Source: an uncultured Alphaproteobacteria bacterium (GTDB taxonomy: Bacteria; Pseudomonadota; Alphaproteobacteria; Bin95). Taken from it: a stretch of DNA of 62,716 nucleotides. The stretch lies in the NCBI GenBank assembly GCA_938083135.1, contig CALLKY010000041.1, positions 1 to 62,716 on the forward strand, written 5' to 3'. Shown in pieces: positions 22,838 to 27,278 of the stretch. The notes beneath the pieces were generated by a model, which was not told the origin of the DNA, ran no database searches, and saw only the letters and a list, made by a program, of their open reading frames with translations. The number at the start of each line of letters is the position of its first letter. Position 1 is the stretch's first letter. Made by a program: the position numbers and the translations under genes.

Positions 22838-24223
22838 TCATTCTGCGGCCGCGACGGTTGCGCCTGCCAGCCATGATTTGATTTCGGCCTTCGCACGCTC
22901 TGTCATAAGTCGCCGCCGCTCTACACGGCCTTTGCGACCACGGGGTGCTGCTTCTGTCAGCGGCGGTAGCAGGCCGAAATTCACATTCATGGGTTGGTAG
23001 GCGAGTTTGGAAGCGCCCTCCCCCGTCATGTGGCCACCCGTGACATGGGCCAGCATGCACCCGAGCGCAGTCGTATCGGCTGGCGCTGGCAGTGTCTGAC
23101 CAAGCGCTTCAGCCGCTGCGAACCGGCCAGCAAGTAAGCCAAGGCCTGCACTTTCAACATAGCCCTCAACGCCTGCGATCTGGCCCGCGAAGCGGATATG
23201 TGGGCTGCTCTTCAGCCGAAGTTCACCATCCAGCAGTTTGGGGCTTTCGATGAAGGTATTTCGGTGAATGCCACCAAGGCGCGCAAACTCCGCTTTCTCC
23301 AAACCGGGAATCATGCGGAAGACATTCGCCTGCGCGCCGTGTCGCAACTTGGTTTGAAAGCCGACGATATTATAGATCGTTCCCTGCAGATTATCCTGCC
23401 GGAGCTGCACCACTGCATGGGCGCGCTTGCCAGTGGCAGGGTTGGTAAGGCCAACTGGTTTCATAGGGCCAAACCGCAGAGTTTCCGGCCCGCGCTCCGC
23501 CATAACTTCGATGGGAAGGCAGCCTTCGAAATAGGGCGTGTCCTTTTCCCAATCCTGGAACTCAGTCTTATCACCGGTCACCAATGCATGGATGAACGCC
23601 TCATACTGCTCCTTATCCATCGGGCAGTTGATATAGTCCGCGCCGTCCCCGCCTGGGCCTTTTTTGTCGTAGCGGGACTGGCGCCAGGCCACGTCCATAT
23701 TGATGCTGTCGAGATAGACAATCGGCGCAATGGCATCGAAGAATGCAAGTGCATCAGCACCCGTTTCTGCCTGGATTGCTTCCGCCAAAGGTGTGCTTGT
23801 CAGTGGGCCGGTCGCGATAATCGTTTGGCCCCAATCTTCGGGCGGCAGGCCGGACACTTCCTCGCGGCGGATTTCGACCAGTGGCTCATCTTCAAGCGCT
23901 TTAGTGATCGCGGCTGAGAATACATCCCGGTCCACGGCGAGCGCATCGCCGGCTGGTACTTTCGCCTGTTCCGCGGCCTGCATCATCAAGGAGTTCGCAG
24001 CGCGCATTTCCCAATGCAGCAAGCCGACAGCGTTGTGTTCCGAATCGTCAGACCGGAATGAGTTCGAGCACACAAGCTCCGCCAACCCCTCCGTTTGATG
24101 TGCCGGGGATGTTTTATGGGGCCGCATTTCATGGATAATCGCCGGAACGCCCGCCCGCGCGAGTTGCCACGCTGCTTCCGTTCCAGCCAGTCCGCCGCCG
24201 ATGATGTGCACAGGTTTTGTCAT
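22838..24223 (-). CDS. trmFO: Methylenetetrahydrofolate-tRNA-(uracil-5-)-methyltransferase
   Basis: A 461-residue folate- and FAD-dependent enzyme that makes m5U54 in tRNA. The N-terminal FAD motif [14 protein letters not shown], catalytic-region C52 in [27 protein letters not shown] and the C-terminal [12 protein letters not shown] tail are TrmFO features. It is followed after 19 bases by ytoQ. A 6-bp inverted repeat (24227-24243) lies directly upstream. Confidence 0.96.
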
Positions 24224-24226
24224 GCT

Positions 24227-24243
24227 CTGATCAATATGATCAG
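24227..24243. repeat. Inverted repeat upstream of trmFO
   Basis: CTGATC (24227-24232) and GATCAG (24238-24243) form a perfect inverted repeat with a five-base AATAT spacer. It lies four bases before the trmFO start, in the 61-base gap after the cNMP-FHA gene. It could be an operator or a weak hairpin. It does not match the FNR consensus. Confidence 0.35.
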
Positions 24244-24284
24244 CGCGCTGCTATCACAAGGCCTCAGAACATGAATTAGCCGTG

Positions 24285-25073
24285 TTAAGCGGCGTTCACG
24301 ACCAGCATCGCCCGCTTGATCCTTATAATAAACCGGACTTTGGATATAGCCCCGCCAGCGACAATCTCATTCTCACCAATATGCAAACGGGTGGCACCTG
24401 CCATGGAGCCCCTGCTGAAAACGCTGATCTCAGCGCCGTTCACTATGGAGCCAAGCCGATCCTGAAGATCAAAAACAACCACATGGCCTTCATCATCCAC
24501 ATCAATCCGCAGATGCCTATCCGCGATGACGCCGCCTTCCCGGAATGGCAGCCCTAGCCGACCCGGCGTTCTTTCTGTCGTCAGGCCAAGTGCCAACCCA
24601 ATGGTGAACGGGAATTGATCGATGACATGGCCTTTTGGCCCAATAAACCCTTTTGTCTGCGGCGAACCGCCGAGAATGCGAACCTGCTGTAAATCCGGAC
24701 CACCAACAATGCCCGGTGGAATATTTCCATGCGCCACCGATTTGATGTCACACATGCGTTTGCAGATCATTTTGAGCAGGCTAACCCCAAGACCGTCCTC
24801 GCCACCGAACGCCTTAAGGAAGGTTTTCCGGTCTAATGCGGCCAATACGGAATTCTCTACAGCGACTGTTGTTGTAGACCGTGGCACGCCGTTAATGACG
24901 CCCATCTCGCCCAAAATCTCACCACGCCCCAATACGGCAACAGGAACGGGGTCTCCGCCAGTGTTATCCGCGCGGCGGACCTCGATCTCTCCGGATTCTA
25001 CGAAATAGACGCAATCACTGGCTTCACCCACGCTATAAAGGGTATCGCCTTCTTTCAGCAGAATTGTCTGCAT
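24285..25073 (-). CDS. Cyclic-nucleotide-binding protein with C-terminal FHA-like domain (copy A)
   Basis: A 262-residue protein. Residues 1 to about 115 form a CRP-type cNMP-binding domain, with the phosphate-binding cassette GEMGVINGVPRSTTT. There is no helix-turn-helix. Residues about 155-255 resemble an FHA fold: FPFTIGLALG, then RHLRIDVDDEGHVVVFDL, a Gly-Ser-x-x-NG turn (LGSIVNGAEI), then LHIGENEIVAGG and a final strand. The phosphothreonine-reading Arg and Ser of true FHA domains are not evident, so the FHA call is inference. It is 115 bases downstream of a paralogue. Confidence 0.75.
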   Translation of the reverse strand: MQTILLKEGDTLYSVGEASDCVYFVESGEIEVRRADNTGGDPVPVAVLGRGEILGEMGVINGVPRSTTTVAVENSVLAALDRKTFLKAFGGEDGLGVSLLKMICKRMCDIKSVAHGNIPPGIVGGPDLQQVRILGGSPQTKGFIGPKGHVIDQFPFTIGLALGLTTERTPGRLGLPFREGGVIADRHLRIDVDDEGHVVVFDLQDRLGSIVNGAEISVFSRGSMAGATRLHIGENEIVAGGAISKVRFIIRIKRAMLVVNAA

Positions 25074-25188
25074 CGCAAGTCCGCCTCCGCCAGGGTTTCC
25101 ATGAGCCCTAATAGAGGACGCCGCCCATCCCTAAGAGCGCGTTAAATGGCGATCAGTCACCCTGTGGATGATTTCAAAATGCGAGAAC

Positions 25189-25965
25189 TTACGCCGCCGC
25201 CTCACCTGCCATTGCGCGGCTCAGGCGGAGGGTGAAGCGGACAGGCGACCATTGCCCGCCCGCCACGATCTCATTGTCGCCAGCATGCAGGTTCGCAATA
25301 GCGCCAGCTTCAAACCGTTCGAAGGTCGAAATGCGACGCCCGTTGACGACACTGCCAAGCCAGCTTTCAAGATCACGTACAATTAATGCACCATCTGGCC
25401 CTGCTTCGATCTGGAAATGGTCTTCGCCAAGCTGGCCCGCAGCCGCCATCGGCAGCCCCAACCGGTTTGGCTTGATTTCAACTGACGTGCTTTCGGACAA
25501 GCCAACGACAAACGGCAGGCTTTGGATGACAATGCCCCCCACTCCCAGCAGCGATTGCAGTTCTGGCGATGCGCCAAGCAGGTGCATGCCAGATACGGAA
25601 CCAGAATGTGCCGGATCACCCGTCACATGGGCCGCTTCAGTCGTAGTGCAAAGCCTGTCACAGATCATGCGGAGAAGCTTTAGGCCAACGCCCTTCTCAC
25701 CGCCGAACGCTTCCTTGAATTCAGCCGTATCGATCGACGCCAGCGTCAGCGGCGTAGCAGCGACAATCGTTGTTGACCGGACACAATTTCGGACAACGCC
25801 CATTTCACCTAGCATTTGGCCTTTACCAAGCGTCGCCACCGTGACTTCCTGATGATCCATCACTCGGCGAACTTCAACCTCGCCAGCCTCAATGAAATAC
25901 ACTTTGTCACTGATGTCGCCAGCGCGGTAGAGCACCTCACCCGCCTGCAGTTTGATTGTCTGCAT
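25189..25965 (-). CDS. Cyclic-nucleotide-binding protein with C-terminal FHA-like domain (copy B)
   Basis: A 258-residue paralogue of the neighbouring gene, with the same layout. The cNMP domain (QTIKLQAGEVLYRAGD, cassette GEMGVVRNCVRSTTI) is followed by an FHA-like domain: LPFVVGLSES, EDHFQIEAGPDGALIVRD, GSVVNGRRIS, LHAGDNEIVAGG. The ATG at 25965 was preferred to a TTG at 25983 because it aligns with MQTILL of copy A. The two proteins probably sense a nucleotide and a partner protein, but no cyclase or kinase is encoded nearby. Confidence 0.75.
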   Translation of the reverse strand: MQTIKLQAGEVLYRAGDISDKVYFIEAGEVEVRRVMDHQEVTVATLGKGQMLGEMGVVRNCVRSTTIVAATPLTLASIDTAEFKEAFGGEKGVGLKLLRMICDRLCTTTEAAHVTGDPAHSGSVSGMHLLGASPELQSLLGVGGIVIQSLPFVVGLSESTSVEIKPNRLGLPMAAAGQLGEDHFQIEAGPDGALIVRDLESWLGSVVNGRRISTFERFEAGAIANLHAGDNEIVAGGQWSPVRFTLRLSRAMAGEAAA

Positions 25966-26015
25966 CGCCTGAATATCCCGCAATAAAACTGGACTTCAGT
26001 CTAAGCGATCCATCG

Positions 26016-27278
26016 CTAAGGCGGCGTTAAGGGGATACTCTGCTTGGCTGTCTTACGTACGCCCGTTGCCACCCAATACCAGAGCGCTGCAACGCACTGT
26101 AACGCGAGGACAGCGCCAAATATCACCGCGTATGCCTCTGCCGGCCGCTGACCATCTTCCATTGGCCAACTTTCCAACGCCGAACCGATGCCGAACTGAA
26201 GACCAGCTGCCATTGCAAACAGCATTAAATTGAGCGCGGTATTAGCGCGTCCCGCGAGCGCTGGTCCAAAATGCTCCGCCAAATGCGCGTTCGCCAATAC
26301 GCCAAGCTGCCCCGTCAGCGCGAATGTCAGCCATAGCGCCCAGGTCCACTCGACATAGCCCATGACAATAAAGAACTGGCAGACCAGAAACGCAGCCAGC
26401 GCAAAATGCATAACAAACAGCGGGCCTTTGCCGCGCCGGCGGGCGAAATCTGCGGCTGCACCCCCGCCCAGTATCCCAGCCAGGAAGGCGACTGCCATGC
26501 CGGTCAGCACTGTTGCGACGCCATCCCGACCAAGACCAGCCACATCGGCTAACCAAGGTGCGGCCCACAGCGTCTGCAAGGCAATGTGCGCGCCGCCTGT
26601 TACGACGACATAAGGCGCAATTCGCCAGAACTCGAACGAGCTATAGACCTGCGCCAGACCGCCAAGCGCTTGGCCGAGCGTCGTCCCTTCTTCCGCCTCA
26701 CCCCGGCGCGGAACGGCCAGAAAAATGAAGCACGCTGCGAGCGCCGTCACGACGGCCAGCATGAAGAACAAACCACGCCAGCCCAGGATTTCAGCCGTGA
26801 CATAGGCCGGATATGAGGCCGCCAGCACGCCAACGCCGCCAAAGGCCATCACCCATGAATTCAGCAGTGGAATGCGGCCCGCTGGTGCAAAAATGGCGAC
26901 GGCTTTGAAGCTGGCCATCAATCCACCAGCAAAACCCAGGCCGATCATGCCGCGCGCCAGCACCAGAACGGTTTCATTCTGCGCGAACCCGAATAGCGCC
27001 GCTCCAGCCGCTGCAACCAACAGCAATGCGGCTTGCACTCGGCGCGGGCCGTATTTGTCGAGCAAGATCCCAAGGGATGGCTGGAATGCAGCGAATGCGA
27101 TCAGGTAAGCAGCCGTTAGCAGCCCAAGGCCTTCTGTGGTGAGGCCGACATCACGGATTAGATCGGGCGCGACGACAGCATTCACCGCACGGAAAAGGTA
27201 CGAAAGGAAATAACCGCAGCCGAACGGCAATAAGACCGTCGCCGCTATCCGGCCAAGCGACAATTGGGGATGGTTCAT
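26016..27278 (-). CDS. MFS transporter
   Basis: A 420-residue, 12-helix major facilitator. The N-terminal helix LPFGCGYFLSYLFRAVNAVV and the motif GILLDKYGPRRVQAAL (motif A position) are visible. The second half contains GILGGGAAADFARRRGKG, the repeat of motif A. It resembles the nitrate/oxalate/organic-anion type of MFS in layout, but the substrate is unknown. It is the last gene of the 26016-32927 metabolic cluster, 16 bases after the dioxygenase. Confidence 0.88.
   Translation of the reverse strand: MNHPQLSLGRIAATVLLPFGCGYFLSYLFRAVNAVVAPDLIRDVGLTTEGLGLLTAAYLIAFAAFQPSLGILLDKYGPRRVQAALLLVAAAGAALFGFAQNETVLVLARGMIGLGFAGGLMASFKAVAIFAPAGRIPLLNSWVMAFGGVGVLAASYPAYVTAEILGWRGLFFMLAVVTALAACFIFLAVPRRGEAEEGTTLGQALGGLAQVYSSFEFWRIAPYVVVTGGAHIALQTLWAAPWLADVAGLGRDGVATVLTGMAVAFLAGILGGGAAADFARRRGKGPLFVMHFALAAFLVCQFFIVMGYVEWTWALWLTFALTGQLGVLANAHLAEHFGPALAGRANTALNLMLFAMAAGLQFGIGSALESWPMEDGQRPAEAYAVIFGAVLALQCVAALWYWVATGVRKTAKQSIPLTPP

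Follow-up and report, generated by a model that had tools for sequence, protein, structure and literature searches.

The window analysed here is a stretch of 62,716 nucleotides, in which two adjacent genes on the minus strand encode small proteins that combine a cNMP-binding (CNB) domain with an FHA-like domain. Gene A (positions 24285-25073, 262 aa) was delimited by the ORF call, Pfam and a structure model, and gene B (25189-25965, 258 aa), its tandem paralogue of the same architecture, by the ORF call and Pfam; an alternative TTG start of gene B is possible at position 25983. The two proteins share 45% identity over 257 residues (E = 1.6e-64), which bears out the earlier sequence-only reading of this DNA, in which they had been regarded as adjacent paralogues in tandem. 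They are separated by 115 bp (25074-25188, minus strand), a gap that has the same length in the sister species. A scan of the pair for promoters and terminators revealed nothing above the shuffled background, and no sigma-70-like promoter was found in the 115-bp gap. Downstream of A lies a gene for a GidA-family (TrmFO-like) protein (22838-24223, minus strand; Pfam GIDA, 7e-99), and upstream of B a gene for an MFS transporter (26016-27278, minus strand; Pfam MFS_1, 4.7e-32), and the order of these two genes around the pair is the same in the sister-species genomes G003 and G002. The neighbouring genes were considered as a source of a functional partner and rejected, as the trmFO-like, MFS and TauD-like genes adjoin the pair only within the genus. 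Comparison of positions 22838-25965 with the sister species (locus L042) gave unequal dS values, namely 0.82 for A, 0.29 for B and 0.48 for the trmFO-like gene, possibly as a result of recombination or gene conversion at B. Pfam detected no enzyme domain in A or B and, even at E <= 1, no helix-turn-helix (HTH), the latter as had been claimed earlier.

The N-terminal half of both proteins matched the Pfam cNMP_binding family (PF00027; E = 1.8e-18 for A and 9.8e-20 for B). In A, residues 1-108 (24750-25073, minus strand) comprise the CNB domain, the hinge and the start of the C-helix (helix 95-114), and residue alignment placed the phosphate-binding cassette, E56..R65-S66..T68, within GEMGVINGVPRSTT (24870-24908, minus strand). 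Together with the base-cap R106, all the pocket residues of A (E56, R65-S66, R106) are present. The CNB domain of B occupies residues 1-106 (25648-25965, minus strand), with the pocket E54/R63/S64 and the base-cap R104, so the CRP-type nucleotide pocket that had been recognized from the letters alone is found in both proteins. In the model of whole A the pLDDT of the CNB domain was mostly 90-95, the C-terminal domain was beta-rich, and the linker between them (about residues 111-126) was of low confidence and is probably flexible; as the pTM of the whole protein was only 0.52, the model leaves the domain arrangement loose. The structural matches of the CNB part of A were Bd1971, CRP/GlxR and PKA/PKG domains, with Z of 15.9 both to CRP and to the cNMP sensor of Bd1971, and with an rmsd of 0.9 Å over 84 residues to the cAMP-bound PKA RIalpha (3pna); the PDB sequence matches of the B domain were the CNB domains of PKG/PKA and, again, Bd1971. 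In Bd1971 the nucleotide is contacted by Glu58, Arg67/Ser68 and the base-capping Arg108, and in CRP by Glu72, Arg82/Ser83 and Arg123 (PMC6717892); the pocket residues of A and B appear to match these contacts, in a register deduced from the first and last positions of the structural alignment. By fold, hinge, C-helix, cassette and base-cap Arg, A and B are members of the CNB superfamily. A genome search for related genes, which had been proposed earlier, revealed a third paralogue missed at the first reading (C97, encoded elsewhere in the same genome, 37% identity), and the Glu, the Arg-Ser pair and the base-cap Arg are intact in A, B, C97 and the G002 orthologue. Judging by these residues, the phosphate cassette looks competent to bind a nucleotide, and cAMP or cGMP would be the expected ligand, while c-di-AMP is an unlikely ligand of a CRP/PKA-type pocket.

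It might be argued that the CNB domain senses another small ligand, or that it is a structural dimerization module. Such reuse has precedents, haem among them (PMC2246266), and the pocket seems dispensable in part of the family, given that in the members linked to hslV (see below) the cassette Arg is lost in 8 of 12 and the base-cap Arg in 11 of 12. In A and B, however, none of the main nucleotide-contact residues is missing or out of register, and constraint on the CNB part is strong (dN/dS versus the G003 orthologues of 0.047 in A and 0.036 in B). Considering this, we judge another role of the domain unlikely, if not negligibly so, and retain cAMP or cGMP as the expected input.

The C-terminal half of both proteins matched Pfam FHA below the threshold (E = 0.016 for A and 0.018 for B). 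The same profile was found at E <= 0.1 in 17/17 aligned members of the CNB-FHA family defined below (best E = 2e-11), and therefore the weak scores of A and B reflect divergence of the domain, not its absence. It extends over residues 128-256 of A (24306-24692, minus strand), as follows from the model of whole A and homology to the modelled B domain, and over residues 123-250 of B (25216-25599, minus strand), for which its own model and PDB matches are available. The PDB matches listed for the whole model of A were CNB domains, and for this reason the FHA region was given a model and a search of its own. Folded separately by AlphaFold, the C-terminal domain of B reached pLDDT 87.4 and pTM 0.83; Foldseek matched it to FHA structures (CT664, OdhI, GarA, EmbR, Rad53, RNF8) at probability 1.00, and VIA-align gave Z up to 12.6 to FHA structures, the SMAD MH2 domains, which have a related fold, appearing further down the list. 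The FHA-like fold proposed from the sequence thus withstood the structural check, the domain being an FHA beta-sandwich and not a winged helix.

In Rad53 the phosphothreonine site comprises R70, S85 and N107. Their equivalents are L160/A184/L207 in A and L156/G180/L203 in B, that is, the Arg of the GR motif, the Ser of SxxH and the Asn of NGT are all replaced and neither protein has the residues of a phosphothreonine reader. The histidine of SxxH and the asparagine of VNG are kept in both, and because of this histidine some residual peptide binding by the domain is possible. The lack of the phosphothreonine-reading residues had been noticed before and is true of A and B, but it is a derived trait of their lineage and not a property of the architecture, as most relatives retain the Arg and the Ser. 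The exchange of Asn for Leu is common across the CNB-FHA family; losses of Arg and Ser are uncommon, that of Arg being limited to the window clade and a few other lineages. Within this clade (A, B, the G002 copy and C97) the Arg is Leu in 4/4 members and the Ser is Ala or Gly in 3/4, C97 having retained the Ser and reaching the Pfam FHA cut-off.

These residues also bear on the proposal that phosphothreonine or phospho-peptides continue to be recognized by the domain, with non-canonical residues, and that A and B integrate cNMP with Ser/Thr kinase signals. The maintained fold and SxxH histidine, the two Ser/Thr kinases of the genome that exceed the Pfam cut-off, the state of C97 and the retention of Arg and Ser by most of the family are all compatible with it. 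Against it stand the replacement of the phosphate-binding Arg throughout the clade and that of the Ser in three of the four members; leucine cannot stand in for the phosphate contact of the FHA Arg. We consider such reading by A and B improbable and prefer a domain that docks independently of phosphothreonine. Much less probable still is that A and B are transcription regulators of the CRP/FNR kind with a swapped DNA-binding domain: the N-terminal half and the C-helix are indeed CRP-like, but Pfam found no HTH at E <= 1 and the C-terminal domain is the FHA beta-sandwich.

In the phylogenetic tree A, B, the G002 copy and C97 formed one group (SH-aLRT 96), in which A and B were nearest each other (support 88). 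In G002 the interval between the trmFO-like and MFS genes contains one copy. The grouping and this lone gene are in accord with a duplication in tandem within the genus, by which the pair probably originated from a gene that is present once at the corresponding locus of G002. Both frames are open over the full length. In comparison with G003, dN/dS was 0.031 for A (0.018 for its FHA part) and 0.073 for B (0.115 for its FHA part), the trmFO-like neighbour giving 0.019. Both domains are under purifying selection, which makes it most likely that the FHA-like domain has a function in spite of its alterations. That A and B are functionless duplicates heading for loss is hardly credible in view of the fully open frames and low dN/dS between the two species, in spite of the frameshift in C97 in the sister-species assembly and of two other genus members in which the genome search found no full-length copy. 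In the G003 orthologue of C97 (L043:3380-4232, contig C12) a 14-base gap shifts the frame near codon 80, which may be either a real loss or an assembly error.

No match to the cyclase (PF00211) or Ser/Thr kinase (PF00069) families was found on the window contig. The earlier remark that neither lies nearby is thus correct for the contig, but nine class III cyclases above the curated cut-off and two Ser/Thr kinases above theirs are encoded in the genome as a whole. With nine cyclases in the genome and none on the contig, the cyclic nucleotide is probably available to A and B from a distance. At another locus of the same genome (L040:5499-9083, contig C11) the gene of a cNMP-binding protein is divergent from that of a class III cyclase, 33 bases apart, and the two are likely a sensor-producer pair. 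Two proteins of the genome exceed the Pfam FHA cut-off, one of them being C97; the other (L223:5175-7195, contig C59) begins like a histidine kinase and contains a canonical match to FHA, and its ORF overlaps the start of an ORF for a PP2C-like phosphatase.

Taken together, these data lead us to favour, with a confidence slightly above even, the interpretation of A and B as dimeric adaptors that are switched by cyclic nucleotides and dock, through the FHA-like domain, independently of phosphothreonine. The proteins would dimerize (as A-A, B-B or A-B) through the C-helix, which is long and resembles the helix that serves for dimerization in CRP and Bd1971, and cAMP or cGMP made by the cyclases encoded elsewhere in the genome would bind the CNB domain. 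Nucleotide binding would then be passed on by the linker as a change in orientation of the FHA-like domains. The latter may capture, retain or let go of a partner protein via a phosphothreonine-independent surface, as GarA and OdhI do with metabolic enzymes. The suggestion of hitherto undescribed nucleotide-dependent adaptors, made from the sequence, holds insofar as the proteins possess no catalytic or DNA-binding domain, both their domains are constrained and no published description was found; the ligand binding, oligomeric state and partner are what we infer.

Among known systems, Bd1971 of Bdellovibrio bacteriovorus, a cNMP-EAL protein (PDB 6HQ2-6HQ7), is the best structural match of the CNB domain of A (Foldseek E = 7.5e-11, full protein) and resembles A and B in the contact residues and in having a CNB domain with a non-HTH output in cis. 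Its CNB dimer drives this output by large domain motions (PMC6717892), but the output is a c-di-GMP phosphodiesterase, whereas that of A and B is of the FHA fold. The transcription factors CRP, GlxR and CAP share with A and B the CNB fold, the phosphate cassette and the C-helix but end in a helix-turn-helix, which A and B lack, having another C-terminal domain. GarA and OdhI, the regulators of 2-oxoglutarate metabolism, are, like A and B, small FHA proteins without a catalytic domain, belong to the nearest PDB folds and can bind enzymes without phosphothreonine. In both of them, however, the phosphothreonine site is retained, and the switch is phosphorylation of the N-terminus and not a CNB domain. 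GarA binds unphosphorylated enzymes in a phospho-independent manner (PMC4393303), and PDB complexes of this phospho-independent FHA-enzyme type (8p5x, 8p5r, 6i2q) were among the fold matches. The Pfam profile Yop-YscD_cpl matched 8/17 family members at E <= 0.1. Cytoplasmic FHA-like domains of the YscD/PrgH type often lack the phosphothreonine residues as well; the YscD/PrgH proteins are, unlike A and B, membrane-anchored parts of secretion systems and have no CNB domain.

A and B belong to a broader family, which we defined by CNB and FHA domains in one chain, mostly of 250-300 aa, and by the motif G-x-N-E-[IV]-x-A-G..S..F near its end. In the class-wide sample a strong match was present in 31 of 385 genomes and 26 of 276 genera (~9%), most of the matches spanning both domains, and members were also found beyond the Alphaproteobacteria in the phylum-wide sample. 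Named contigs with members include those of Desulfobacterota and Verrucomicrobia, and the family thus reaches a few other phyla. The members on Azospirillum plasmids carry no annotation beyond 'cyclic nucleotide-binding domain-containing protein' and reside in unrelated neighbourhoods. In the open-licence papers searched, neither the CNB-FHA architecture nor an association of CNB proteins with hslV was found described. The classification of 30 CNB families lists fusions to kinases, channels, CBS domains, AAA ATPases and histidine kinases, and FHA is absent from its text (PMC2246266). Apparently, these are ordinary domains in an undescribed combination.

At 12 sampled loci of five family-level groups (L046, L162, L170, L172, L173, L176, L179, L180-L183, L220) the CNB-FHA gene lies directly upstream of hslV on the same strand, followed by hslU, with a gap of about 7-166 bp to hslV, and is divergent from the his gene cluster. 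All 8 loci examined with NCBIfam equivalog models were confirmed for HslV; HslU and HisB were confirmed at one locus. All 12 proteins have kept the FHA Arg and Ser, and their pockets are eroded as mentioned above; the window clade shows the reverse, with the pocket intact in 4/4 and the Arg plus Ser pair in 0/4. The opposite erosion is a contrast of two clades and not a family-wide rule, and across the family the tendency of an intact CNB site to exclude an intact FHA site was not significant (Fisher p = 0.10), so that this idea was rejected. As the tree needs two changes, a single origin of the hslV position without loss is unsupported. A and B stand outside the hslV-linked subfamily: they are flanked by the trmFO-like and MFS genes and no longer have the Arg and Ser of the FHA site. 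The hslV link is not transferable to them, since hisB directly adjoins hslV in the genome that encodes them, with no CNB-FHA gene between.

Probably, the ancestral family joined cyclic nucleotide with phosphothreonine signalling, and the window lineage kept the nucleotide input only. The hslV-linked protein is possibly an adaptor of HslVU. A more far-reaching scheme, which we put forward tentatively and with considerable doubt, is that CNB-FHA proteins are unrecognized integrators of cNMP and phosphothreonine that have specialized in opposite directions, the window lineage keeping the nucleotide sensor at the expense of phosphothreonine reading, and the hslV-linked one keeping the FHA reader, largely abandoning the nucleotide sensor, and regulating or adapting HslVU. 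Non-transcriptional effectors of cAMP and cGMP are few in bacteria, and a broadly distributed family in which a seemingly competent CNB sensor is joined to a docking domain of the FHA fold would constitute a new class of cyclic-nucleotide output. Two lineages with opposite erosion of the binding sites offer a natural experiment on the role of each domain, and the recurrent place before hslV-hslU suggests, for some members, a partner with which tests can begin. This family-wide result, in which two lineages are worn at opposite sites and one is linked to hslVU, outweighs the A/B pair itself.

Several further loci of the family may be mentioned. Another family contains a CNB-FHA tandem pair (genome G028, contig C3, L045:9337-11105) beside a phoB-type regulator and pst-like genes, which is separate from the window pair in the tree. 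As both C97 and the G028 pair lie near phoU/phoB-type genes, a linkage to the Pst-Pho system was considered; it is not repeated at the other loci and was treated as a coincidence. At L163:1551-3296 the CNB-FHA region makes up only part of a 581-aa ORF, which may either include an additional fused domain or have been extended too far.
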